Assembly: GCF_000166775.1 (NCBI RefSeq) | Contig: NC_014720.1 | Span: 707,501 to 771,500 of the forward strand | Direction: 5' to 3' | Length of the DNA stretch: 64,000 nucleotides | Source: Caldicellulosiruptor kronotskyensis 2002 | Lineage (GTDB): Bacteria; Bacillota; Thermoanaerobacteria; Caldicellulosiruptorales; Caldicellulosiruptoraceae | Shown: one piece after another, positions 1-18,484 of the stretch | Numbering within the stretch: the first letter of the stretch is position 1 | Layout: the number at the start of each line of letters is the position of its first letter | The notes under the pieces: model-generated | Databases searched by the model: none | Told to the model about the DNA's origin: nothing | What the model saw: the letters and a program-made list of their open reading frames with translations, nothing else | Translations under genes and position numbers: made by a program

Positions 1-684
1 AATCCCAAAATTTTGAAACTTACCAAAGATGAAGGTAGGACATATATGCCATTGCCGTATTTTAAATATAAGGGTAAGAATCCTCAGTTTGCAGGTGGTA
101 GAGGAGCAGGTTGGGTTGGTTCTATGGTTACAAAAAATGCTAAAAATCCGGGAAGGATAATACGATATTTTGAATATAGTTGGAGCGATGAAGGACAATT
201 GACAAATCTGTTTGGTAAAAAAGATGTGACATATTATATCGATAAAAATGGAATGCCGAGATACAAACCAGAAGTATTAAAAGAATTACAGGAAAAACCA
301 GAAACTTTAGATACTAAATATGGATTTGAGAGAAGATTGCTAATGTGGAGATCAAAATGGGCAGGATGGCAAAGAATAGCAATGGCACCCAAGGAATATG
401 AAGATTACTTAAGATCAGTTGCACGTTATGGTGTAGATATTTGGAATCTAGGTCTTGATAATCTTGACCCGGATCCAACTACTAAAGAAGGAGTTTTTTA
501 TGCGAAAATCAAAAACATATGGAACAAATATCTTGTACAGATGGTATTAGCTAAAGATGATAATACTTTTAAGAAGGCTTATGAAAGTGCATTGAAAGAA
601 ATGAAGAATGCAGGCTTAGAGCAGGTAAGAAAAGTTATGTACCAAAACCATTTAAAAGATTTGGCTAAGAAAAAAGGTATGTAA
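1..684 (+). CDS. ABC sugar transporter substrate-binding protein, C-terminal part (LplA-like)
   Basis: Partial gene: the reading frame is open from base 1, so the start and any signal peptide lie upstream. About 227 residues remain. The C-terminal helix region (residues from WNKYLVQMVLAKDD to the end) resembles the end of the LplA-type binding protein at 46667-48364 in this window, with the same pattern of a short Trp/Ala/Lys segment followed by an amphipathic FxKxxxxxLxxMxxxGLxxV helix. Proteins of this group bind oligosaccharides outside the cell for an LplB/YtcP-type permease. Being directly upstream of the glycosidase genes, it probably delivers their substrate. The family call is fairly safe; the ligand is unknown. 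Confidence 0.75.
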   Translation, partial: NPKILKLTKDEGRTYMPLPYFKYKGKNPQFAGGRGAGWVGSMVTKNAKNPGRIIRYFEYSWSDEGQLTNLFGKKDVTYYIDKNGMPRYKPEVLKELQEKPETLDTKYGFERRLLMWRSKWAGWQRIAMAPKEYEDYLRSVARYGVDIWNLGLDNLDPDPTTKEGVFYAKIKNIWNKYLVQMVLAKDDNTFKKAYESALKEMKNAGLEQVRKVMYQNHLKDLAKKKGM

Positions 685-689
685 TTTGT

Positions 690-724
690 AATTAAGCAGG
701 GGTTTAAAGCCCCTGCTTAATTTT
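690..724 (+). terminator. intrinsic terminator-like hairpin between binding-protein gene and GH31
   Basis: A perfect 13-bp stem (690-702 with 710-722), loop of 7, then only four Ts. Just 27 bases separate it from the GTG start of the next gene, and these hold only its ribosome site. It may therefore be a leaky terminator that lowers downstream expression relative to the binding protein. Confidence 0.75.
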
Positions 725-751
725 AAAAAATATCGAGGAGGCGTAGAAGAG

Positions 752-3031
752 GTGAAACAAAAAAATTCTTTTAAGTATGACATGTTAGATTTTGATTTAC
801 CTGAAGCCAAAAATGATATTTTATGGATTGCTGAAATGGCTGAAGAAGTATATGAGCAAAGTGATGGTTCTGTGATTATAAAAATACCTTTTCAAGCTCA
901 AAAGAAAGAAGTGTTTGTTCCAGACAATAGTAAAGAAAAGAAATATTATTATATGGAAGTAAAAGCATATGATGATGCAATTGTAAGGTGTTCTATTTCT
1001 TTTGGTGGAAAGTTTATGGAAGACAATAATAATCCTATGATAGAATGGGCCCCATCGTTAAAGCAAGAAAAACTTTATGTAATAAAAAATAAGAATGGAT
1101 GGGATATAGTAGATGATAATAAAGTTGTAAGAATGAAAGTAAATAATATTAAGAAACCAGTAAGAAAATGGAGTAATTTACATCCTGAACCACAATATTT
1201 TTTTAATGCAAAAATATTTCCTGACGGAATAATAGCTGTATCTTTTTTGGCTAACGATACATTTACGCCAGGTATTGTTGAATCTGTGAGTTTAGGATAT
1301 GTAGAACATGATGGAAAAGCAGATAGGTGTGTTTTTGCGCTTCACTCAGAATATAATGAAAAATTTGCTGGAACAGGGGAGCGATTTGCTCCTATGAATC
1401 TTGCAGGAAAAACAATAATTTTAGAAAATAATGATGCTTTAGGAGTTAATAATCGGAGAGCATATAAAAATGTTCCGTTTTATATATCGAGTAAAGGTTA
1501 TGGGTTACTTATAATGACCTCTGCTCATGTAAGACTTTCATTAGCTGATATATCAACAAGAGCAGTACAAGCCTTAATAGAGGATGATGTATTGGATTTA
1601 TTTTTTATAGGTGGAGGGGAACCAGAAAGAATTATTTACAATTATAGAAGAATTACTGGTTTTCCTCGAAAGGTTCCTGCTTGGTCTTATGGAATATGGA
1701 TGAGTAGAATGTCTTATTTTTCTGCTGAAGAGACTTTAGATGTTGCGAAAAAATTGAGAGAAAATGGATTTCCTTGTGATGTGATTCATTTAGATACTGG
1801 ATGGTTTAAGAAAGATTGGCAGTGTGATTGGGAATTTGATGAAGAGAGGTTTCCAAATCCTCAGGAGTATATTAAGAACATGCATAAAATGGGTTTCAAA
1901 ATTTCTGTTTGGCAGCTTCCTCAAGTTGCGGCTGAAACAAAACATTATAATGTAGCAATAGAAAATAAGTTTATTTCTCGAATAACAAAAATGTCTGAAG
2001 AGAGCACATCTAATTTTGGAGATGTAGAATATAGAGGAGTAATTGATTTTACAAATCCAAAAGCAGTTAAGTGGTATCAAAATTTATTGAAAAACTTATT
2101 TGATTTAGGTGTAGATGTTATTAAAACGGATTTTGGCGAAAATATAGATATGAATGCGGAATATTTTTCAATGGAACCAAAGAAGTTACATAATATTTAC
2201 TCGTTACTTTATCAAAAGGCAGCTTTTGAAATCACAGAAGAAGTTAAAGGAAAAGGACAAGCAATTATATGGGCAAGAGCAGGCTGGATAGGATGTCAAC
2301 GATATCCAGTTCATTGGGGTGGTGATAGTAGTAGTACATGGGATGGTTTGGCGGCTACAATTCGAGGTGGTTTACATCTTGGAGTATCAGGATTTGGTTT
2401 TTGGAGTCATGATGTTCCTGGATTTCACGGCCTTCCAGATTTTATGAATAATTGGCCGGATGATGATATTTATGTTCGCTGGACTCAGGTTGCAGTATTT
2501 ACTTCTCATATTCGATATCACGGGACTTCACCACGAGAACCCTATAATTATCCTAATGTATCAGATATTATTAGAGAATGGTGGAAATTACGTTATGCAT
2601 TAATACCATATTTTGTTGAGCAGGGAGAAAAAGTTACAAAGACAGGTTATCCATTTATAAGAGCGTTGCTTATTCATCATCCTGATGATGAATATTGTTG
2701 GTACATTGATGATGAATTTTATTGCGGTGATATTTTCTTAGTAGCGCCGATAATAAATTCTGCTGGAAAAAGAAACATTTATTTGCCCAAAGGAAATTGG
2801 ATAGATTTTTGGTCAGGAGAATTTATTAAAGGTCCTATTTTACTAAAAGATGTTTATTTCCCACTAGAAAGAATACCTATATATTGTGTTGCTGGTTCTG
2901 AACTTAAAGTATATCCATATGTAGTACAACATACGGGTGAAATAGAATTCGATAAAACAAAAATAATAGTTTTTGATCATACGTATAGAGGTTTTTCTAA
3001 ATCAATACTTGGAAAAATAATAAATTTATAA
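752..3031 (+). CDS. GH31 alpha-glycosidase, YicI-type alpha-xylosidase
   Basis: 759-residue cytoplasmic enzyme with no signal peptide. It starts at GTG, about 10 bases after GGAGG. The GH31 barrel carries the alpha-xylosidase type nucleophile motif KTDFGE (Asp460) and the acid/base motif HWGGD (Asp525). The spacing of 65 matches the E. coli YicI pair (Asp416/Asp482). The GFGFWSHD motif follows. The N-terminal beta-sandwich is less conserved than in the YicI-like enzyme at 38860. The expected reaction is release of alpha-1,6-xylose from xyloglucan-type oligosaccharides inside the cell. It sits 27 bases before the GH39 gene, so the two are cotranscribed. The family and catalytic residues are read directly; exact specificity is inferred from the KTDFGE signature. 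Confidence 0.88.
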   Translation: MKQKNSFKYDMLDFDLPEAKNDILWIAEMAEEVYEQSDGSVIIKIPFQAQKKEVFVPDNSKEKKYYYMEVKAYDDAIVRCSISFGGKFMEDNNNPMIEWAPSLKQEKLYVIKNKNGWDIVDDNKVVRMKVNNIKKPVRKWSNLHPEPQYFFNAKIFPDGIIAVSFLANDTFTPGIVESVSLGYVEHDGKADRCVFALHSEYNEKFAGTGERFAPMNLAGKTIILENNDALGVNNRRAYKNVPFYISSKGYGLLIMTSAHVRLSLADISTRAVQALIEDDVLDLFFIGGGEPERIIYNYRRITGFPRKVPAWSYGIWMSRMSYFSAEETLDVAKKLRENGFPCDVIHLDTGWFKKDWQCDWEFDEERFPNPQEYIKNMHKMGFKISVWQLPQVAAETKHYNVAIENKFISRITKMSEESTSNFGDVEYRGVIDFTNPKAVKWYQNLLKNLFDLGVDVIKTDFGENIDMNAEYFSMEPKKLHNIYSLLYQKAAFEITEEVKGKGQAIIWARAGWIGCQRYPVHWGGDSSSTWDGLAATIRGGLHLGVSGFGFWSHDVPGFHGLPDFMNNWPDDDIYVRWTQVAVFTSHIRYHGTSPREPYNYPNVSDIIREWWKLRYALIPYFVEQGEKVTKTGYPFIRALLIHHPDDEYCWYIDDEFYCGDIFLVAPIINSAGKRNIYLPKGNWIDFWSGEFIKGPILLKDVYFPLERIPIYCVAGSELKVYPYVVQHTGEIEFDKTKIIVFDHTYRGFSKSILGKIINL

Positions 3032-3058
3032 AACTAAATAAAAACAGGAGGGGAATAG

Positions 3059-4504
3059 ATGGAAATAACAATTTTCCTTCAGCAAAAACTAGGAAAAGTG
3101 AATAAATTCTGGACAAAATGTGTTGGGAGCTGTCACGCTGCAACTGCACTGAGAGAAGATTGGAGAAATCAGTTAAGAAAGTGCAGGCAGGAGATTGGGT
3201 TTGAATATGTTAGATTTCATGGCTGGCTTAATGATGATATGAGTGTTTGTTTTAGAAATGATGAAGGCAAGCTGTGGTTCTCATTTTTCAACATCGATTC
3301 TATAATTGACTTTTTATTGGATATTGGGATGAAACCTTTCATAGAACTGAGCTTTATGCCTGAAGCATTAGCGTCCGGGACAAAGACAGTTTTTCATTAC
3401 AAAGGCAATATAACTCCACCAAAATCATATGAAGAGTGGGGACAGCTTGTTGAGGAGCTTGCAAGACATCTTGTTAAAAGATACGGCAAAAATGAAGTAA
3501 GGGAATGGTTTTTTGAAGTATGGAATGAACCAAATTTAAAAGACTTTTTCTGGGCAGGGACAATGGAAGAGTATTTTGAGCTATACAAACATGCGGCATT
3601 TGCAATCAAGAAAGTGGATTCTGAACTAAAAGTGGGAGGACCGGCTTCAGCAATAGATGCATGGATACCAGAGCTTAAAGATTTTTGTGCAAAAAACGGT
3701 GTGCCGATAGATTTTATTTCTACGCACCAGTATCCGACAGATTTAGCATTCAGCACAAGTTCAAACATGGAAGAGGCTATGGCAAAGGCAAAGAGAGGAG
3801 AACTGGCTGACAGGGTAAAGAAAGCTTTGAGTGAGGCATCACCATTGCCTGTTTATTATACTGAATGGAACAACTCGCCAAGTCCGCGAGATCCATACCA
3901 TGACATTCCATATGATGCGGCATTTATTGTGAAGACCATAATAGATATTGTTGATTTGCCATTGGGCTGTTATTCATACTGGACGTTTACAGACATATTT
4001 GAGGAATGCGGGCAGAGTTCATTGCCTTTCCATGGAGGATTTGGACTTTTGAATATTCACGGTATACCAAAACCGTCATACAGAGCGTTTCAAATTTTGA
4101 ATAAGCTAAGTGGAGAGAGGATTGAAATAAAAACAAAGGATGAGAGTGAGACTATTGATTGTATTGCTACAAGTAATGATGAGGAAATAGTGTTAATAGT
4201 TTCGAATCATAATGTTCCACTATCACCTATAAAAACTGAAAATATAAAGGTAGTAGTTGAAGGTCTAAAAAATTGTAATACAGTAATATTAGAAAGGATA
4301 GATGAATATAATGCAAATCCCAAGAGAAAGTGGGTTGAGATGGGCAGCCCCGGATATCTTACAAAAGAACAAATAGAAGAATTAATAAAAGTTTCAGAAA
4401 TTAAAAAAGAACAAATTTCTTGTGAAAAAATAAGTGAAAAAGCAGTTAAATTTGAATTTGATATACTTCCACATTCAGTGGTGGCTATAACAATTAACTA
4501 TTAA
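3059..4504 (+). CDS. GH39 beta-xylosidase-like glycosidase
   Basis: 481 residues, ATG start after AGGAGGGG, no signal peptide. It is a clan GH-A barrel with the acid/base motif EVWNEPNL (Glu157) and the nucleophile motif YTEWNNS (Glu269). The spacing and the surrounding LASGTKTVF, GGPA and SYWTF-D-FEE motifs match GH39 beta-xylosidases of Thermoanaerobacterium. A small beta-sandwich follows the barrel. GH39 enzymes remove beta-xylose, and some act on alpha-L-arabinofuranose or other pentoses, so activity on decorated oligosaccharides rather than plain xylobiose is possible. It lies between GH31 and GH95 genes in the same direction with short gaps, which suggests joint action on one imported glycan. 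Confidence 0.9.
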   Translation: MEITIFLQQKLGKVNKFWTKCVGSCHAATALREDWRNQLRKCRQEIGFEYVRFHGWLNDDMSVCFRNDEGKLWFSFFNIDSIIDFLLDIGMKPFIELSFMPEALASGTKTVFHYKGNITPPKSYEEWGQLVEELARHLVKRYGKNEVREWFFEVWNEPNLKDFFWAGTMEEYFELYKHAAFAIKKVDSELKVGGPASAIDAWIPELKDFCAKNGVPIDFISTHQYPTDLAFSTSSNMEEAMAKAKRGELADRVKKALSEASPLPVYYTEWNNSPSPRDPYHDIPYDAAFIVKTIIDIVDLPLGCYSYWTFTDIFEECGQSSLPFHGGFGLLNIHGIPKPSYRAFQILNKLSGERIEIKTKDESETIDCIATSNDEEIVLIVSNHNVPLSPIKTENIKVVVEGLKNCNTVILERIDEYNANPKRKWVEMGSPGYLTKEQIEELIKVSEIKKEQISCEKISEKAVKFEFDILPHSVVAITINY

Positions 4505-4553
4505 GTAAAAAATATACCGAATAGGTTCAAAAAATTTTTAAAGAGGTGTCATT

Positions 4554-6812
4554 ATGAATTCGCAAAGCTTAAAAATAATTTTCGATAAACCTGCAAGCTG
4601 TTGGGAAGAGGCACTTCCAATAGGTAATGGAAGCTTGGGTGCTATGATTTATGGTGGAGTTGAATATGAAACCATCCAATTAAATGAAGAAAGTATTTGG
4701 TCATGTGGTCCTCGAAGAAGAGAAAATCCTGATGCTATAAAATATTTACCTGAGATACGAAAAAGCATTTTAGAAGGCAATATAAAAAGAGCTGAAGAGC
4801 TTTCTGTTTTTGCTCTTTCTGGGACACCTCATAGCCAAGGAAATTATGAACCGTTAGGGTACCTTGATATATATTTTGAAGGGATTGAGGCAGATAAAGT
4901 TGAAAGATATACCAGATATCTTGATATTTCAAATGCTACTTGTAAAGTTGAATTTGATGTAGATGATATCAGATATGAAAAGATTTACTTTTCTTCTTAT
5001 CCAGATAAGGTAATTGTAGTAAAGATATGCTGTAACAAAAAAGGAGCACTCTTCTTGAGAGCAAAATTTAGACGTGAGTATCAAGAAGACATAGATAGGT
5101 GTGGAAGAGTAGATAATGATAAAATATTTATAGAATGCTCAGCTGGTAGTGGGAGAGGAGTTTCTTTTTCTGCTGTATTAAAGGCAGTGTCGAAAGATGG
5201 AGATGTTTATACAATTGGTGATAATTTGTTTGTAAAAGATGCAACTGAGGTTGTACTTTTAATTACTTCAACAACCAGCTACAAAGCGAAAGATTATTTT
5301 AACTGGTGTGTGAAAACGCTAGAACAAGCATCTAAACATGATTTTGAAGAACTATATAAGAGGCATACAGAAGATTACAAATCATTGTTTGACAGAGTTG
5401 AGTTTTATATCGATACAGAAAATACTAACAAACGTACTGAATTGACAACTCCAGAGAGGATTAACTTGTTAAAAGAAAGATATAAAGATGAAGAATTAAT
5501 TGTACTTCTTTTTCAATTTGGAAGATATTTGCTAATATCAAGTAGCCGCCCAGGGTGTCTGCCACCAAATTTGCAGGGAATTTGGAATAAAGAGATGAAG
5601 CCACCTTGGGGCAGTAAGTATACAATAAATATTAATCTACAGATGAACTATTGGCCTGCTGAGGTTTGTAATCTTTCAGAATGTCATATGCCTTTATTTG
5701 ATTTACTAGAGAAAATGTATGAAAACGGTAAGATTACTGCCCAGAGAATGTATGGATGTAGAGGATTCTGTGCGCATCATAACACAGATATTTGGGGAGA
5801 TACTGCACCGCAGGATATTTACATCCCTGCAACATATTGGCCGATGGGGGCTGCCTGGCTTTGTCTTCATATATTGGATCATTATGAATACACAGGAGAT
5901 TTAGATTTTCTAAAAAAATACTACTATTTAATGAGGGAAGCAGCGCTGTTTTTATTAGATTATCTCATTGAAGATAAAAACGGCTATCTTGTAACATGTC
6001 CTTCATGTTCACCAGAGAATAGCTATAAACTGAATGGCGATGTATATAGTATGACATATATGCCGACTATGGATATTCAAATAATTACCGCACTTTTTGA
6101 TAAGATAAAAAAAGCCAATGATGTATTAAAATTGAATGATGAGATAGTTGAAAAAATAGAATATGCACTAAATAAACTTCCGCCGTTAAAAATAGGTAAA
6201 TATGGGCAAATTCAAGAGTGGATAGAAGATTACGAAGAAGCAGAGCCGGGGCACAGGCACATTTCTCATTTGTTTGGACTCTATCCTGAGAATCAAATAA
6301 CTTTTGAAAAAACACCACAGCTTTTTGAAGCTGCAAAGAAAACGCTGCAAAGGAGACTTGAACATGGTTCTGGACATACTGGTTGGAGCAGGGCTTGGAT
6401 TATATGTTTCTGGGCAAGGCTTAAAGAAGGGAATAAAGCTTATGAAAATATTTTAGAACTTCTCAAAAAATCAACTTTGCCCAATTTGCTTGACAACCAT
6501 CCACCGTTTCAAATTGATGGAAATTTTGGAACAACTGCTGGTATTGCAGAGATGATTATGCAGTCATGTGACGACACGATTGAACTTTTACCTGCACTTC
6601 CAAGTGATTGGAAAAGCGGATATATAAAAGGATTAAGAGCAAGAGGGGGACATATAATTGACATTTATTGGGAGAATGGCGTATTAAAGAAGGCAGAAAT
6701 TATTCTGGGGTTTAGAGAAACTGTTGTTCTAAAATATAAGGGCAGTTATATTGAAATAAAAGGAAATATAGGAGAAGAAAAAGTTATCTCTTGTGATAAT
6801 TTCTCTAAGTAA
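4554..6812 (+). CDS. GH95 alpha-L-fucosidase (first of two tandem)
   Basis: 752 residues, cytoplasmic, ATG start. The N-terminal domain opens with [19 protein letters not shown], typical of GH95. The (alpha/alpha)6 barrel holds [10 protein letters not shown] (Asn359/Asn361), CPSCSPEN (Glu488) and QIDGNFG (Asp655). These fit the Asn-Asn/Glu/Asp catalytic set known from Bifidobacterium AfcA, an inverting 1,2-alpha-L-fucosidase. Some GH95 members act on alpha-L-galactose instead, so L-galactosidase activity cannot be excluded. Arginine codons are mainly AGA, as in most neighbours and unlike the next gene. It is followed by a paralogous GH95 after 115 bases. Confidence 0.9.
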
Positions 6813-6927
6813 AGTAGCCAAAGTGGCAACTCAAAAATCTTTTAATAGTAAAAATAGTAAATGCTTGATTTAGTGCAGCTTTTGAAAAACAAAAATAAAA
6901 ATAATGTATTGAGGAGGAACAATTTTA

Positions 6928-9288
6928 ATGAAGCACCCTTATCATCTTTCCTTTTACAAACCGGCTAGTACATGGTACGAAGCACTTCCGCTGGGTAACG
7001 GTAGACTTGGTGCAATGGTTTATGGTCACACAGCTGTTGAGCGCATTCAACTAAATGATGACTCATTATGGTCTGGTACATTTATCGATCGCAACAACCC
7101 TTCGTTGAAAGAAAAGCTTCCAGAAATTCGAAGATTAGTGCTTGTAGGTGATTTGTATCACGCCGAGGAACTTATTATGCAATATATGGTAGGTACACCT
7201 GCTTCTATGAGACACTATACAACGTTAGGCGAATTGGACATTGCATTGAATCAACATTTGCCGTTTGCTACGGGATGGATTCCAAATAGCAATGGCTGTG
7301 AGGATTATTATTGTGATCTTGACCTTATGAATGGGATACTTAGTATCACTCATAGGCAGGCAGGTGTACGTTACTGTAGAGAAATGTTTGTTAGCTATCC
7401 TGCACAAGTTATGTGTATTCGTTTTGTAAGCGAAAAGCCGGGAACAATTAATATGGATATTATGTTAGACCGTACAGTTATATCTGATGAGACAGTTCCA
7501 GACGAACGTAGACCTGGACAACGAGTAAGAAGAGGGTGGCCGACAGTCAATGTCGATTTTATCCGTACTATGGATGAACGTACAATACTTATGCGTGGGA
7601 ATGAAAGTGGAGTAGAGTTTGCTACTGCAGTACGGGTTGTATGTGATGGCAAACTTCAAAATCCTGTTTCTCAGCTGCTTGCACGGAATTGTGGAGAAGT
7701 GATATTGTATTTGGCATCATCAACTACTAATCGCTCAGAAGATCCTGTTTCAGAAGTATTCAGACTTCTTGACGCAGCAGAGAAGAAAGGTTATGTGGCT
7801 TTACGCGAGGAACATATAAATGATTTTTCAAATTTGATGTGGCGATGTGTACTGGATCTAGGCCCGTCACCAGATAAACCGACTGATGAAAGAATCGCAG
7901 CGCTTCGGGCGGGGGATAACGACCCTGCACTGGCAGCATTGTATTTCCAACTTGGTCGCTACCTTATTGTATCTGGTAGTCGCGAGGGAAGCGCACCGCT
8001 AAATTTGCAGGGAATATGGAATGCCGATTTCATGCCGATATGGGATAGCAAATATACTTTAAATATCAACTTGCAAATGAATTATTGGCCTGTGGAGATT
8101 TGTAACCTTTCTGAACTGCATATGCCTCTTATGGAATTGTTGGGAAAGATGCACGAAAAAGGACGAGAGACGGCACGTGTTATGTATGGTATGCGCGGTA
8201 TGGTCTGTCACCATAACACAGATTTTTATGGTGACTGTGCACCGCAGGATCGATATATGGCTGCTACACCTTGGGTGATCGGTGGGGCATGGCTCGGTTT
8301 ACATGTATGGGAACACTACTTGTTCACGAAAGATTTAAATTTTCTGCGAGAAATGTATCCAATTTTACGCGATATTGCAATGTTCTATGAAGATTTCTTG
8401 ATCGAAGTAGATGGAAAGCTTGTGACATGTCCTTCAGTATCACCTGAAAATCGTTACATCTTACCAGATGGATATGATACGCCTATGTGCGTAAGTCCTG
8501 CAATGGACAATCAGATATTGCGCGAACTTTTTGCAGCTTGTATTGAGGCAGCAAATCTTTTAGGTGTGGACCAAGAATTAACCGAAAAATGGTTAGAAAT
8601 TAGTCAGCGGTTACCTAAGGATAAAATTGGTTCGAAAGGTCAGTTACTTGAGTGGGATCAGGAATATCCTGAGCTCACACCGGGTATGGGTCATGTTTCT
8701 CACTTATTCGCTTGTTATCCTGGTAAGGGAATCAATTGGAGGGATACACCAGAATTAATGAATGCTGTAAGAAAATCGCTGGAACTTCGAATGGAACATG
8801 GTGCTGGCAAAAAGGGTTGGCCGTTGGCATGGTATATTAATATTTTTGCCCGGCTTTTGGATGGTGAAATGACAGATAAACTTATTCGTAGAATGCTTAT
8901 TGATTCAACTGCTCGTAATTTACTGAATGCTACTCCAATCTTTCAGATAGACGGTAACCTGGGTGCTACAGCAGGTATAGCAGAATGTTTGTTACAAAGT
9001 CATATTGCGGTACATTTTCTTCCTGCATTGCCAGTTTCTTGGCAGGAAGGTAGTGTCAAAGGCTTACGCGCGCGTGGGGGACATGAAGTTGATATAAAAT
9101 GGAAAGGGGGAAAACTTGTTGAGGCTGTTGTTACACCACAGTTTACTGGACCTATTGAAGTGGTTGGTGAATTACTGAAAGTAGAATGTGAGGGTTCATC
9201 AGTCCCGATAGTAAAAACACAAATTGGTTTTATGTTTTTTGCTGAAGGCGGTAAAGCGTATAAATTGACGCCAGTAAGTAACACTTAA
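6928..9288 (+). CDS. GH95 alpha-L-fucosidase/alpha-L-galactosidase (second tandem copy, foreign-looking)
   Basis: 786 residues, no signal peptide. ATG start about 10 bases after GAGGAGG. It has the same architecture as the preceding gene, with the catalytic motifs [10 protein letters not shown] (Asn379/Asn381), CPSVSPEN (Glu507) and QIDGNLG (Asp675). Despite similar motifs it is clearly divergent. Many arginines use CGT, CGC, CGA or CGG, and codons such as GGC and GCG are common, whereas flanking genes favour AGA and AT-rich codons. This suggests acquisition from another lineage rather than a recent local duplication. The pair may split work between L-fucose and L-galactose or between linkage contexts; that is inference. 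Confidence 0.9.
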   Translation: MKHPYHLSFYKPASTWYEALPLGNGRLGAMVYGHTAVERIQLNDDSLWSGTFIDRNNPSLKEKLPEIRRLVLVGDLYHAEELIMQYMVGTPASMRHYTTLGELDIALNQHLPFATGWIPNSNGCEDYYCDLDLMNGILSITHRQAGVRYCREMFVSYPAQVMCIRFVSEKPGTINMDIMLDRTVISDETVPDERRPGQRVRRGWPTVNVDFIRTMDERTILMRGNESGVEFATAVRVVCDGKLQNPVSQLLARNCGEVILYLASSTTNRSEDPVSEVFRLLDAAEKKGYVALREEHINDFSNLMWRCVLDLGPSPDKPTDERIAALRAGDNDPALAALYFQLGRYLIVSGSREGSAPLNLQGIWNADFMPIWDSKYTLNINLQMNYWPVEICNLSELHMPLMELLGKMHEKGRETARVMYGMRGMVCHHNTDFYGDCAPQDRYMAATPWVIGGAWLGLHVWEHYLFTKDLNFLREMYPILRDIAMFYEDFLIEVDGKLVTCPSVSPENRYILPDGYDTPMCVSPAMDNQILRELFAACIEAANLLGVDQELTEKWLEISQRLPKDKIGSKGQLLEWDQEYPELTPGMGHVSHLFACYPGKGINWRDTPELMNAVRKSLELRMEHGAGKKGWPLAWYINIFARLLDGEMTDKLIRRMLIDSTARNLLNATPIFQIDGNLGATAGIAECLLQSHIAVHFLPALPVSWQEGSVKGLRARGGHEVDIKWKGGKLVEAVVTPQFTGPIEVVGELLKVECEGSSVPIVKTQIGFMFFAEGGKAYKLTPVSNT

Positions 9289-9590
9289 TAATAACTTATG
9301 AAAAGATAGAGCCATATCATCTATTCTTTACCACAACATAAAAAAGTAGAGTGGAATTAATATCTGCATTATATTAAAAAGTGGAAAATGATAGTAATAA
9401 AAAATTAAAAAAATAAAAAAAACACTTCTGTACATATATTTGTTAATTGATAGGCACCTGCCGCGATGTGGTAGAGCGAAACGATAGGAGTAATATAAAG
9501 AACTACATTGTTTATATTTCGATAATAAAATTTAAAGAAAACAAGAAATATTTTGAGAAAATCAAAAAAAGATGAAAAGGGGAGAAAGTT
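9289..9590 (+). other. 302-base intergenic stretch, no gene seen
   Basis: Very AT-rich with runs of A, except for a short GC-richer patch around 9456-9485. I see no convincing coding frame, clear terminator or consensus promoter. It may hold the downstream flank of the transferred GH95 segment and a weak promoter for the GH127 gene. Confidence 0.5.
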
Positions 9591-11357
9591 ATGAAGGGAC
9601 ATGGTCAAATTTTAATTCCTTTAAAAGCATCTCTTCTCAATGAGAGTGAATTTTACAGAAGATTTGAGATAAATAGGAACTACATGCTTTCTCTAAAAAC
9701 TGAAAACTTACTTCAGAATTTCTACTTGGAATCTGGATTAGTAAGCTGGAGTTTTTTGCCACAAGATATTCATGGTGGTTGGGAGTCACCAACATGCCAA
9801 TTAAGAGGGCATTTTTTGGGACATTGGTTATCAGCAGCAGCAAAAATATATGCAAATTTTGGAGATGAAGAGATAAAAGGAAAGGCAGATTATATTATTA
9901 ATGAATTAGAGAAATGCCAAAGAGAAAATGGTGGAGAATGGGTAGGTTCCATTCCAGAAAAATATTTTGAGTGGATGGCACGCGGAAAGTATGTATGGGC
10001 ACCACACTATACTGTCCATAAAACCTTTATGGGACTTGTAGATATGTATAAGTATGCGTCAAATCAAAAAGCATTAGAAATAGCAGATAAATGGGCTAAT
10101 TGGTTTTATAGATGGAGTGGACAATTTTCACGGGAAAAGATGGACGATATTCTCGATTATGAAACTGGTGGTATGCTTGAGATTTGGGCAGAACTATATG
10201 ATATAACAAAAGACAGTAAATATAAAGATTTAATGGAACGTTATTACAGAGGTCGCTTATTTGACAGATTATTAATGGGTGAAGATGTATTAACAGGTAA
10301 ACATGCAAATACTACTATACCAGAGATACATGGAGCGGCGAGAGTATGGGAAATTACAGGAGAAGAAAAGTTTAGAAAAATAGTTGAATCTTATTGGAAG
10401 GAAGCAGTGGATGAACGGGGGTATTTTTGCACGGGTGGGCAGACATTAGGAGAAGTTTGGACACCTAAGCAAAAAATAAAAAATTATCTTGGAACAACAA
10501 ATCAAGAGCATTGTGTAGTTTATAATATGATACGCTTGGCTGAATTTCTGTTTAGATGGACAGGGGATAAGAGATATAGCGATTATATAGAAAGAAATAT
10601 TTATAATGGATTGTTTGCTCAACAGAGGCTAAAAGATGGAATGGTCACATATTATCTTCCGCTAATGCCAGGTAGTCAAAAGAGATGGGGAACACCAACA
10701 AATGATTTTTGGTGTTGTCATGGGACGTTGGTGCAAGCACATACTATTTACAATGATCTAATCTATTACAAGAGCCAAAATGGGATAGTAATAAGCCAGT
10801 TTATACCTTCTTCTGTAACTTGGAAAGATGACAAAGGAAACGACATTACAATAACTCAATACTTTGAAAGAAAACATGGAAGTTTTGCCTATACAGCAGA
10901 AAAGGATGAAATATATATAGAGATTCAATGTAAGAGTCCTGTAGAATTTGAGCTTGCAATAAGAAAACCTTGGTGGGCTAAGAAAGTAGAAATAGAAATA
11001 AACGGAAACTCATATTATGCTGCTGACGATTCTCCATACATCCAATTAACGCAAAGATGGAACAATGAGAAGATAAAGATTACTTTCTACAAAGCAGTTG
11101 AGACTTGTTCGATGCCAGATGATCCGCAGCAAGTAGCTTTCATGATAGGTCCTGTTGTATTAGCAGGACTTTGTGAAAGGAGAAGGAAGATCTATATTGG
11201 TGAAAGAAAGATAGAAGAGATAATTGTACCAATTGATAAAAGAGGTTATGGACCGTTATTATATACAACTCAAGGTCAGATTGAGGATATATTCTTTTTA
11301 CCACTTTGTTACATTGATCAAGAAAAATATACCGTATACTTTTTAATTGATGAATAG
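9591..11357 (+). CDS. GH127 beta-L-arabinofuranosidase-like glycosidase
   Basis: 588 residues, cytoplasmic, ATG start after AGGGGAG. The N-terminal (alpha/alpha)6 barrel has QLRGHFLGHWLSA and the substrate-site YTVHKTFMGL region. The zinc/cysteine catalytic set of GH127 (formerly DUF1680) is visible: Glu306 and Cys308 in NQEHC, and the Cys375-Cys376 pair in FWCCHGT. These correspond to Glu338, Cys340, Cys417 (nucleophile) and Cys418 of Bifidobacterium HypBA1. GH127 enzymes release beta-L-arabinofuranose from hydroxyproline arabinans or plant side chains; one known branch acts on a branched acidic sugar of rhamnogalacturonan II. Which of these applies here cannot be told. Downstream lies the transposon scar that separates it from GH51. 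Confidence 0.88.
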   Translation: MKGHGQILIPLKASLLNESEFYRRFEINRNYMLSLKTENLLQNFYLESGLVSWSFLPQDIHGGWESPTCQLRGHFLGHWLSAAAKIYANFGDEEIKGKADYIINELEKCQRENGGEWVGSIPEKYFEWMARGKYVWAPHYTVHKTFMGLVDMYKYASNQKALEIADKWANWFYRWSGQFSREKMDDILDYETGGMLEIWAELYDITKDSKYKDLMERYYRGRLFDRLLMGEDVLTGKHANTTIPEIHGAARVWEITGEEKFRKIVESYWKEAVDERGYFCTGGQTLGEVWTPKQKIKNYLGTTNQEHCVVYNMIRLAEFLFRWTGDKRYSDYIERNIYNGLFAQQRLKDGMVTYYLPLMPGSQKRWGTPTNDFWCCHGTLVQAHTIYNDLIYYKSQNGIVISQFIPSSVTWKDDKGNDITITQYFERKHGSFAYTAEKDEIYIEIQCKSPVEFELAIRKPWWAKKVEIEINGNSYYAADDSPYIQLTQRWNNEKIKITFYKAVETCSMPDDPQQVAFMIGPVVLAGLCERRRKIYIGERKIEEIIVPIDKRGYGPLLYTTQGQIEDIFFLPLCYIDQEKYTVYFLIDE

Positions 11358-11401
11358 GCCAAACACAACATGAATACTGTGCTTAGGATTTTGTCAAAAG
11401 A

Positions 11402-11565
11402 AAGTTCAGGATTAGCTTTTTGATGTATTTTTCAAGAAAGATTGAATGAATTTAGGGTTGTTTTCACGGACCTGTGGGGCGATGCCAGTTGTATCAAAGA
11501 TTAAGGTTGAAGCAAGTTCAGGAGATTGTTAGAGAAAAATATTGTGTACATGGATTGAGATATTA
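11402..11565 (-). pseudogene. fragment of a DDE transposase related to the one at 11898-13307
   Basis: This stretch matches roughly 12766-12926, the middle of the neighbouring transposase gene, at about three quarters identity by eye. It has small gaps and no open frame. It is a remnant of a second, related element. It stops exactly where the first copy of a 38-bp direct repeat begins. Confidence 0.65.
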
Positions 11566-11603
11566 TTGAGCGTTTCTGCAAAAGGCTAATAAAACAATTC
11601 TAA
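11566..11603 (+). repeat. 38-bp direct repeat, copy 1
   Basis: Begins TTGAGCGTTTCTGCAAAAGG and matches 13421-13458 at 37 of 38 positions, in the same orientation. It abuts the transposase fragment on its left. The pair brackets the transposase pseudogene. Confidence 0.9.
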
Positions 11604-11897
11604 TAGGCGTTTGCAAAATGGGTGGTGATTGAAGGTAAGAGATGCCAATACTAACATGAAATACAATCAAGATACAAAAAGAAAAGCAAAATGATAACCA
11701 AATATTATCAATACCAACAAGATTAATCAGCAACAAACATATGACGAAAATTAACAACTTTAAAAAAGACAATAGTACCCTAAACCTTCTAAACTTCTTG
11801 ATTTTAGAAGGCTAAATAAAAAACAAAACCATAAATTTTTTGTAGGTCAATTATTCAATAAAAATAGTGGTTTTAAGCGATAAGTTTTTTGAGTTTG

Positions 11898-13307
11898 TTA
11901 AGCTTTTTGATAGTCAATAAAGAAGCAATAAAGCTTAATGTTGTGAGCGAGGATAAACAAGAGCGAAAAAGTAATGGCAGATAGCAAGAAATCAGAGAAA
12001 ATAGAAATATGGTCATAAGTAGAGATAGTATCAGAACCCATGTAGGATTTTAAGTGGTAAATAGTCTGCTCTACAGCGACACGTTTTTTGTAGAGGTCTA
12101 AAAACTCTTGAGAATTTCTGTTTATACCTGGGAAAGAGCGAAAATCGTCAGGGTAAGTGTAGAACATTCTACCTGATTTAGAGGTAGTACAAGGTTGAGG
12201 GCAAGAGCAGACACGTTTGCCATCTTTGTATTGTGACATAGGGCAAGTCCATTTAAGGCGCAAAGAGCGATTTTTACCCTGACATTTGCCTTCAGGTTTA
12301 AAAGGTTGATTGAACTTTTTACAAGAAGAAGCACCATCCTCAGAAATAACGATATTGGGGTCTGATGTAGGTGTAGTATTTTTAGAAGCTCTTGTATTTA
12401 GAGGGATAACGATTTTGGAGAAGTTAAAAGTATTTTTTAAAGTGGAGTATATGTTGTGGGAATCCAAAGCACTGTCAGCGATTGATGGTAGAGAAATTAT
12501 TGGGGATGTAGGAGAATAGAGTTTCGAGCGAAGGAATTAAAGCGGCAGAAGTCGGAGATAGCTTTTTCTTGATGTGGGTCAGAGGAAGTAGAATCATAGT
12601 TAAATAGGGGAACTAAAGCTAAAGGGATACCAGAAGCATTTGTAATGACAGCAAATTTCAAAGCCCAGCAGAAATGGCAATTTGTGAACATAAGACGGAT
12701 ATTGGAATTGGCAGCAGCAGTTTTGGGCAGAGAAGAATAAACAGCAGAAGTAGACTTTTTCAGAGGGAAGTTCAGGGTTAGCTTTTGAGGTATTTTTCAG
12801 CAGTAGATGAATGAATTTAGGATTGTTTTCACGAACCTTTGGGACAATACCTGTTGTGTCGAAGATTAAGATTGAAGAATCTTGAGGGTATTGTTGGATG
12901 GCAAGATTGTGTGCATGGATAGAGATATTTTGAAAAAGTTTGTGGATTTCACTGTTAAATAGTTTTCTGAAGCGAGAGAAAGTAGAAATAGAGGGGACAT
13001 TGCCATTTAAGTTACAAAATAAACGGAGTTCATAGGAGTTAAGAAGAACAGCGCGAAGCTGTGTAAGGGTATTTAGTTTGAGTAATTTTTGGACAAGGAA
13101 GCACAGAAGCATAGATTCTAAGGAGAAGTATCTATGCTTGCCAAAGTGTTTATAGTAAGCATTGTAGAAAGAAGAAGGTATGTAGTTTGACAAGTCGATG
13201 AATTTATTGAACAAGCCCAAGAGGCTTTCAGGCTTGTAGAAAGCCAAAGCCTTTAGGTGGGAGAATAAATCTAAAAATGAAAGTTGTTTAGGTTTGGTGT
13301 TGAACAT
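11898..13307 (-). pseudogene. DDE transposase pseudogene with two frameshifts
   Basis: Reading leftward from ATG at 13307 (ribosome site GAGGAGGG), the frame encodes an N-terminal domain and the first catalytic Asp region (LIFDTTGIVPKVREN). Homology leaves this frame near 12750, continues in a second frame (CHFCWALKFAVITNASGIPL) to about 12530, then returns to the original frame for ADSALDSHNIYS, a Cys-rich segment, and LYKKRVAVEQTIYHLKSYMG, which carries the final Glu. The two shifts are opposite in sign, and the original frame has a stop inside the out-of-frame section, so full-length protein is not expected. About 470 residues would be intact. It belongs to the IS4/IS5/IS1182-like DDE group; I cannot name the family with certainty. 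Confidence 0.85.
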
Positions 13308-13313
13308 TTTGGA

Positions 13314-13376
13314 ACCCTCCTCATAGTAGAAGATTTGTTTTATATAATCATATTTTACTACAATTATGAGGAGGGT
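13314..13376 (-). repeat. 12-bp perfect inverted repeat overlapping the transposase ribosome site
   Basis: ACCCTCCTCATA (13314-13325) is exactly complementary to TATGAGGAGGGT (13365-13376), with 39 bases between. The inner arm holds the transposase Shine-Dalgarno on the minus strand. A transcript entering from outside would fold and hide the ribosome site, a known device for limiting transposase made by read-through. Part of an element end is another possibility. Confidence 0.7.
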
Positions 13377-13410
13377 GACCAGACTTTTTTTATTCTATGT
13401 AAAGCTTGAT

Positions 13411-14996
<1,586 letters not shown>

Positions 14997-16498: not shown

Positions 16499-18484
16499 AT
16501 GGCAAGGATTTTCTTGGTTCATGGAGATAGATTGATAAGTAAATACGATAAGGAAATACTGTGGATTGAAGCATGGGGCAAAAACAGTTTGCGAGTTCGT
16601 GCAACACACGAAGGAAGTATGCCAGAAAATGATTGGGCTTTGTCACCAAAAACCAAAATTGGTGGTAATAATATAGAAATCAAAATTTTGGACAATAGAG
16701 GAATAATAAAAAACGGTAATATATATGCTGTAATTGAGCCAAGTGGGGATATTAAGTTTTACAACAACGAAAACAAAATTATATTGCAAGAATATACTTC
16801 AAAATTCGCTGCAGGACTGCGCAAAAGAGGACGTGAATTTCAGCCCATATTAGGGGGCAGTTATCGATTAACTGTTCGTTTTGAATCAGAGCCTAATGAA
16901 AAGCTTTATGGAATGGGACAATATCAGCAACCATTTTTAAATTTAAAAGGCTGCGCATTAGAACTTGCACATAGGAATTCTCAATCAAGTGTTCCATTTT
17001 TAGTTTCAAACATTGGATATGGTTTTTTATGGAACAATCCAGCAATTGGAAAGGTCGTATTTGGCAAGAACATAACTGAGTGGGAAGCATATGTAACCAA
17101 AATTATGGATTATTGGATAACAGCAGGAAATACTCCTGCTGAAATTTTAGAACAATACATGGAAGTAACAGGAACACCTCCAATGATGCCCGACTATGCA
17201 ATGGGGTTTTGGCAAAGTAAACTAAGATATAGAAATGCTCAAGAGTTAATGGATATAGCATATGAATACAAAAAGCGAAATCTTCCTCTTGATGTAATAG
17301 TAATTGATTTTTTCCATTGGCCACATCAGGGAGATTGGAAATTTGATGAAGATTACTGGCCTTATCCAGAAAAAATGGTTGAAGAGCTCAGAAAAATGGG
17401 TATTGAAGTAATGGTATCTATATGGCCGACTGTTGAAAAAGAAAGCGAAAATTATGAAGAGATGTTTTCTAAGGGCTTACTTATAAGTACTGACCGAGGA
17501 CCGCGAGTAACTATGCAGTTTGTCAATGACACTCTTTTTGTTGATATGACTAATCCCGAAGCACGTGAATTTATGTGGGGAAAAGTCAAAGAAAATTATT
17601 TTTCAAAAGGTATTAAAATGTACTGGCTTGATGAAGCCGAACCAGAATTCCATAAATATGAATTTGATAATTATCGATATTATTTGGGACCATGTTTAGA
17701 AATAGGAAATATTTATCCTCTATTGTATGCAAAAACTTTTTATGATGGATTGAAAAAGGAAGGTATAGAAAACATAATTAACTTAATTCGTTGTGCTTGG
17801 GCTGGTTCCCAACGCTATGGAGTGGTTGTGTGGTCGGGGGATATTGCATCTACATTTGAGTCATTGAGAAATCAAGTTGCATGTGGCTTAAATATGGCAA
17901 TGGCGGGAATACCCTGGTGGACAAGTGACATAGGAGGTTTCTATGGTGGCGATCCAGAGGATCCTTCTTTCAGAGAGTTGATAATCAGATGGTTTCAATT
18001 TGGAGCATTTTGTCCTGTATTTCGGCTGCATGGTGATAGAAAGCCTTATATTCCACCGACGAGTAATAAAGGTGGTGGGAGAATGGGTTCTGGAGGGCCC
18101 AATGAGGTTTGGAGCTATGGAGAAGAAGCTTACGAAATTTTCAAGAAGTATCTCACTATACGTGAAAAACTTAAACCGTATATTAAAAGACAAATGTTAC
18201 TCACACATAAAAAAGGAACACCAATTATGCGACCTCTGTTTTATGATTTCCCCTTTGATACAAAATCATGGGAAATAGAAGATGAATTTATGTTTGGTCC
18301 AGATATATTGTTAGCTCCTGTGTTATATGAAGGCATGAGAGAAAGAACTGTTTATCTACCTGAAGGTGCTTACTGGAGAGAGTGGGAAACAGGAAAAGTA
18401 TATGAAGGTGGAAAAGAAATTATTTGCCAAGCTCCTTTAACTACAATACCAATTTTTATACGGGATGGAGTTGTGTTGTTCTAA
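16499..18484 (+). CDS. GH31 alpha-xylosidase-like enzyme (Xyl31A/WLDEAEPE subgroup)
   Basis: 661 residues, no signal peptide, ATG start. The GH31 barrel has the nucleophile in MYWLDEAEPE (Asp378) and the acid/base in VVWSGD (Asp448), followed by GIPWWTSDIGGF. The CAWAGSQRYG motif before the acid/base is typical of xyloglucan alpha-xylosidases such as Cellvibrio Xyl31A. This is a different GH31 subgroup from the KTDFGE enzymes at 752 and 38860. It lacks the PA14-like insert often found in secreted homologues, which fits a cytoplasmic enzyme. It is tightly coupled to GH4. The family is certain; the substrate is inferred from the motif similarity. Confidence 0.87.
   Translation: MARIFLVHGDRLISKYDKEILWIEAWGKNSLRVRATHEGSMPENDWALSPKTKIGGNNIEIKILDNRGIIKNGNIYAVIEPSGDIKFYNNENKIILQEYTSKFAAGLRKRGREFQPILGGSYRLTVRFESEPNEKLYGMGQYQQPFLNLKGCALELAHRNSQSSVPFLVSNIGYGFLWNNPAIGKVVFGKNITEWEAYVTKIMDYWITAGNTPAEILEQYMEVTGTPPMMPDYAMGFWQSKLRYRNAQELMDIAYEYKKRNLPLDVIVIDFFHWPHQGDWKFDEDYWPYPEKMVEELRKMGIEVMVSIWPTVEKESENYEEMFSKGLLISTDRGPRVTMQFVNDTLFVDMTNPEAREFMWGKVKENYFSKGIKMYWLDEAEPEFHKYEFDNYRYYLGPCLEIGNIYPLLYAKTFYDGLKKEGIENIINLIRCAWAGSQRYGVVVWSGDIASTFESLRNQVACGLNMAMAGIPWWTSDIGGFYGGDPEDPSFRELIIRWFQFGAFCPVFRLHGDRKPYIPPTSNKGGGRMGSGGPNEVWSYGEEAYEIFKKYLTIREKLKPYIKRQMLLTHKKGTPIMRPLFYDFPFDTKSWEIEDEFMFGPDILLAPVLYEGMRERTVYLPEGAYWREWETGKVYEGGKEIICQAPLTTIPIFIRDGVVLF

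Follow-up and report, generated by a model that had tools for sequence, protein, structure and literature searches.

Probable lateral acquisition of a GH95 gene by the hemicellulose island of Caldicellulosiruptor kronotskyensis 2002

Two adjacent genes for GH95 proteins, copy 1 and copy 2, lie in a 64,000-nt stretch of the Caldicellulosiruptor kronotskyensis 2002 genome (the window, in which coordinates are given unless stated otherwise; the genome is a single contig of 2,843,785 bases), raising the question of whether the second is a duplicate of the first or arrived from elsewhere. An earlier note on this DNA had favored lateral transfer over duplication, a view now sustained by gene trees with AU tests, by the absence of copy 2 from all 36 other genomes of the class, 11 of them congeners, by an empty site in the congener G010, and by the retention of CpG within the gene. 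Very probably, copy 2 is a single GH95 gene that this lineage acquired from a bacterium related to the Clostridia of its clade but not itself sampled, and that was inserted between copy 1 and the GH127 gene of a resident island for hemicellulose side chains.

A carbohydrate-active enzyme gene that has moved singly into a resident cluster by lateral transfer is recognized by a foreign phylogeny, patchy presence, an empty site and atypical composition. Copy 2 resembles the general case in all four respects, and differs from it in that CpG is retained while GC3 is native and in that a relic of an IS110-family element lies at one edge. Events of this type are ordinary; of mild interest are the CpG test and the IS110-family relic.

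The first genes of the window constitute the hemicellulose island, in which a gene without a Pfam match, located behind a permease gene, is followed by GH31, GH39, the two GH95 copies and GH127 (Table 1). Beyond GH127 lie IS1182 remains, an arabinofuranosidase-like gene, an alpha-galactosidase-like gene and a second GH31 gene. The gene at the window start might be guessed to encode a binding protein from its position next to the permease gene, which is the sole part of the supposed transporter with a Pfam match. An Rfam scan of 6700-13600 gave no match, and a promoter and terminator scan gave fewer matches than shuffled sequence. The order of the island differs in the congeners G009 (L139) and G003 (L142), where the end of GH31 is followed by GH127 and GH95, and then by the arabinofuranosidase region in G009 or the second GH31 in G003, with neither GH39 nor copy 2 at that location in either genome. 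Judged by gene order, the island has been reshuffled within the genus.

Table 1. Features at and around copy 2, in window coordinates
Feature	Coordinates	Strand	Basis or remark
C-terminal part of 560-aa gene (genome 706502-708184)	1..684	+	Without Pfam match; downstream of permease gene
GH31 of the same island as copy 2	752..3031	+	Pfam
GH39, resident	3059..4504	+	Pfam; 94% in G010
Copy 1, resident GH95	4554..6812	+	Protein 93% to G010; groups with congeners
Left flank, native	6813..6907	+	Orthologous to GH95/GH127 spacer of G010, 82% over flank bases 1-95
Left junction interval, including copy 2 ribosome-binding-site region	6908..6927	+	Sequence comparison with G010
Copy 2, probably laterally acquired GH95, 786 aa, intact	6928..9288	+	ORF, Pfam, codon/CpG statistics, trees
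Insert DNA	9289..9467	+	No genus match among up to 40 candidates scored per genome
Decayed tail end of IS110-family element	9468..9582	+	Start about 9465-9469; right junction about 9567-9582
GH127, native side of right junction	9591..11357	+	Pfam; 98.3% to G010

Arginine codons, CpG and base composition

Composition was compared with a reference set of 315 ORFs of 150 aa or more, called mechanically in twenty 20-kb stretches and the window, with subsets of 125 ORFs having 15 or more Arg codons and 106 ORFs of at least 400 aa. The earlier observation that arginine is written mostly with CGN in copy 2, unlike the flanking genes, was confirmed. CGN was used for 34 of its 47 Arg codons, versus 5/32 in copy 1, 6/29 in GH127 and 853/4740 (0.18) when the 315 ORFs were pooled, and this share ranked second among the 125 ORFs (beta-binomial tail 1.2e-4). 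Ranks 1 and 3 were occupied by transposase-like genes ~15.4 and ~10.5 kb upstream of copy 2, which we take to be IS30-like because of their HTH_38 and rve domains (rve being below the Pfam cut-off). Of the window's ORFs with 15 or more Arg codons, the second GH31 gene (16499-18484) has the next highest share, 17 of its 34 Arg codons being CGN, and is a candidate for another acquired gene.

G/C-ending codons had also been described as commoner in copy 2, which is true relative to the two adjacent genes (third-position GC of 0.319 versus 0.251 and 0.260) but not genome-wide, where its synonymous GC3 of 0.273 ranked 162 of 315 (mean 0.276). Because GC3 is within the normal range of the genome, an outcome that the earlier note had named as contrary to transfer, it was rejected as evidence of transfer. 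When Arg was left out, the codon divergence of copy 2 ranked 59 of 106. The composition of the gene is atypical in CGN and CpG and not in GC3 or non-Arg codon use. Its overall GC content was 0.420 (rank 5 of the 106 longer ORFs), the extra GC being located in codon positions 1 and 2 (rank 2/106).

The genome avoids CpG, the median observed/expected ratio being 0.48 in the 106 longer ORFs, among which copy 2 ranked second with a ratio of 0.89. To remove the effect of protein sequence and codon choice, synonymous codons were shuffled within each gene and the CpG formed across codon boundaries was counted. Copy 2 contained 29 such dinucleotides where 27 were expected, while copy 1 contained 10 where 19 were expected. 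Copy 2 was the only one of the 106 ORFs with a positive z for this measure (median -3.1), and its ratio ranked third among the 285 ORFs with at least 5 expected, after two shorter ORFs with small counts. Because CpG is retained across codon boundaries, CGN use in copy 2 accompanies CpG retention, and the foreign signal is CpG with CGN, not GC3. It is codon-boundary CpG that reveals the foreign gene in this CpG-poor genome, and the test could be run genome-wide.

Distribution and insertion site

One of the 12 genomes of the genus, that of the source strain, carries copy 2. No orthologue was found in the 11 congeners or in the 36 other genomes of the class, which include these congeners and in which the best match was 48% identical. 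Among 398 genomes sampled from the phylum, relatives at 70% were present in G168 and G269, two of the nine genomes in their family, and GH95 matches in 83 plasmid records were all below 60% identity.

G010 aligned to window positions 1-6933 (92.5% identity) and 9552-11386, and the two segments are adjacent in G010, where a 112-base spacer between GH95 and GH127 represents the empty site. This spacer has its match in the left flank of copy 2 up to about position 6907, so that most of the 115 bases there are native. The flanks of 115 and 302 bases had been put forward as likely junctions; their lengths are correct, but only their ends are junctions, the right flank being composed of insert DNA and the IS110-family relic. 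Within the insert DNA (9289 to ~9467), only chance-level matches were obtained in donor-type loci, and none in the genus among the candidates scored.

Copy 2 was probably gained in this lineage rather than lost in G010. An older gain of the same lateral origin, preceding the split from G010 and followed in that genome by a clean deletion between two ribosome-binding-site regions, would fit with native GC3 as a sign of longer residence and with the similar purine-rich sequences on both sides. It is nevertheless rather unlikely, as it requires one extra event, leaves 11 congeners without the gene, and has to accommodate both a G010 spacer that contains no remnant of copy 2 and a CpG content in copy 2 that has not been depleted as in most genes.

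Apart from the empty site, the right edge bears a trace of a mobile element. The tail of the right flank is homologous to the terminus of an element present in multiple copies: nine of the 12 genomes of the genus, the source genome included, contain matches of 73-87% identity across 38-118 bases. The extent of this IS110-family element was taken from a 2003-base block common to L159 and L162; fuller copies in congeners are ~2 kb long, and the copy in G003 (L162:2857-3987) includes a transposase with DEDD_Tnp_IS110 and Transposase_20 domains. Because only the last ~115 bases remain in the right flank of the window, where no such transposase was found, this sequence is referred to as a relic rather than an element. 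It adjoins the ribosome-binding site of GH127. The element appears to have taken part in the insertion or to have sat at its edge, and it could also have been inserted later. More specifically, copy 2 might have come into the genus from AT-rich Clostridia, lain next to an IS110-family (RNA-guided) element in a different Caldicellulosiruptor and then been brought as cargo, in a single step, to the start of GH127, the relic being the mark of its vehicle, a sequence of events that we consider improbable.

Two further interpretations of the site were tried and rejected. The two G010 alignments overlap by 50 bases, which was considered as a direct repeat, but the overlap consists only of similar purine-rich ribosome-binding-site regions, so that no target duplication is claimed. 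Import of copy 2, GH127 and an IS1182 piece as one block, a possibility raised by the high identity of GH127 to G010, was tested by sliding identity and set aside, the IS1182 piece (11387-11603) proving to be an old relic that G010 has as well. A second IS1182 copy, with its ORF split, then extends to about 13391, and over the 878 bases queried it is 96-97% identical to two copies elsewhere in the same genome; no match to IS1182 was found in the plasmid records. The GH127 stretch from 9552 to 11386 is 98.3% identical to G010, versus the 92.5% average to the left of copy 2, where the last bins are at 85-88%. It is possibly a recent recombination tract. Upstream of the window, at about 697936-703972 of the genome (L018:7936-13972), a P-type cation ATPase gene is located between two transposase-bearing repeats in the same direction (99.4% identical over 1210 columns); this 6-kb stretch has no counterpart in G010 and has the appearance of a composite transposon.

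Relatives of copy 2 and its likely donor

The statement that the tandem GH95 genes share only family motifs was too strong, as their proteins are 41-44% identical over nearly their full length, although each is no closer to the other than to GH95 proteins of other lineages. A scan of genome contigs, from which the best 80 of 298 relatives of copy 2 were kept, gave 76% identity in L061, followed by 65-75% in MAGs titled Clostridiales, Clostridiaceae, Oscillospiraceae and Bacillota, and lower values of 59% in L065 and 57% in Treponema MAGs; none of these 80 exceeded 76%. From their names, the MAGs presumably derive from digesters and guts. Two of these MAGs are the same DNA as G168 and G269, which belong to the phylum of the source but to another class.

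In a 59-row tree, for which 28 of the 80 genome-contig loci were used (the other 52 being at most 42% identical) and 4 of 33 further GH95 loci were left out (L033 and L034, duplicates of L062 and L064, along with L045 and L049), copy 2 fell into a 12-row clade with Clostridia MAGs (100/100), itself inside an 18-row clade (100/100). Copy 1 fell into a 9-row clade (100/100) with seven congener rows and one row from the class. The gene tree is thus in conflict with species relations for copy 2. A 30-row mixture-model tree agreed on the placement of both copies; the nearest sister of copy 2 within the 12-row clade was not resolved. Both trees carried warnings of uneven composition for copy 1 and for several congener rows, and the 59-row tree also flagged long branches meeting.

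CGN shares in 17 homologues of copy 2 ranged from 0.47 to 0.96, and GC3 was 0.45-0.82 in 10 of the 11 clade relatives. Amelioration is a doubtful cause of the native GC3, because the dS of only 0.19 between copy 1 and its G010 counterpart is probably too little to bring such values down to 0.27, and because AT pressure should also have removed CpG. Copy 2 would therefore have come from a donor with AT-rich GC3 and normal CpG, or else have been gained earlier and lost in G010; the former is preferred because its CpG has not been worn down. The one AT-rich clade relative, L056 (GC3 0.31), is CpG-poor (0.41), unlike copy 2, so that no sampled genome fits the donor.

In L056, L057 and L059, the relative of copy 2 is preceded by a homologue of the 560-aa gene at the window start, and in the latter two it stands between this homologue and a GH39 homologue (101 aa at the contig end in L057), with permease homologues before them (64-75% identity). 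Because the versions of these neighbor genes in the window have native Arg codons and are present in G010, they were not part of the copy 2 event. As a separate observation, the L057 and L059 MAGs contain GH31, regulators, a histidine kinase, permease, GH95 and GH39 in one run, at 52-75% identity to parts of the island.

These shared neighborhoods suggest gene movement between lineages in some direction, and passage from this genus to Clostridia has to be considered. Such a reversal is very unlikely given that copy 2 is present in one of the 12 genomes of the genus compared and has CpG unlike that genome, whereas the Clostridia clade is diverse and lies within the wider 18-row clade. Descent of both copies from one GH95 gene of the genus by ancient duplication, with subsequent divergence of copy 2, would agree with their tandem position, common family and degree of identity, but is hardly credible: AU tests on the 30-row subset rejected a clade of both copies with six congener rows (p 8e-30), the grouping that the earlier note had named as contrary to transfer, and a clade of the two copies alone (p 3e-58), unless alignment or model misleads. 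In addition, the identity of copy 2 is 59-76% to its clade relatives and 41% to copy 1. Selection of CGN codons for expression, without transfer, would account for a codon use that departs clearly in Arg alone, but can practically be dismissed, since CpG kept across codon boundaries is not explained by choice within codons and the tree placement and empty site also oppose it. With lateral acquisition from the Clostridia side as the preferred origin, the hemicellulose island would have been put together stepwise, in part with material from distant Clostridia.

Predicted function of copy 2

Copy 2 has the three-domain architecture of the GH95 enzymes BACOVA_03438 (PDB 4UFC), XacAfc95 (7KMQ) and BH0842 (2RDY), with Pfam matches above cut-off to the N-terminal (PF14498, 170.7 bits), catalytic (PF22124, 518.8 bits) and C-terminal (PF21307, 65.5 bits) domains. 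Alignment to 4UFC and 7KMQ revealed that the catalytic residues are kept, namely N379 and N381 in TLNIN, E507 in SVSPE and D675 in QIDGN, and thus that the Asn pair, Glu and Asp are conserved as in these structures. Glu was named as the GH95 general acid in one study (PMC4491172) and Asp in another (PMC8245568), and copy 2 contains both. Comparison with four homologues indicated constraint (pN 0.14-0.16 versus pS 0.77-0.86). The N-terminus, MKHPYHLSFYKPASTWYEALPLGNG, has no obvious signal peptide as judged by eye, and the protein seems to be cytoplasmic.

Because the catalytic residues are kept and the protein is seemingly cytoplasmic, copy 2 should be an exo-acting inverting alpha-L-fucosidase or alpha-L-galactosidase. 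In view of the permease gene upstream, its likeliest role would be to remove, inside the cell, the terminal alpha-L-fucose or L-galactose of hemicellulose oligosaccharides; once imported, these would lose their terminal L-sugar to copy 2 and then become substrates for the island's GH31, GH39, arabinofuranosidase and GH127 enzymes. Sequence does not decide between fucose and galactose. A Thr or His at the -1 subsite was considered as a substrate marker and dropped: BACOVA_03438 is described as an alpha-L-galactosidase with T370, N372, N374 and E501 (PMC4491172), and XacAfc95 as a fucosidase with the same Thr (PMC8245568), so that this Thr, formerly suggested as a mark of L-galactosidases, is uninformative.

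GH95 alpha-L-galactosidases of strain LL1355 act with a GH31 alpha-xylosidase and arabinofuranosidases on corn glucuronoarabinoxylan, according to PMC7176698; no mention of GH95 was found in PMC7142884. The island resembles the LL1355 system in gene content, with its GH31, GH39, GH127 and arabinofuranosidase-like genes. Two unrelated GH95 enzymes encoded side by side would be natural candidates for acting on two L-sugar caps, fucose and galactose.
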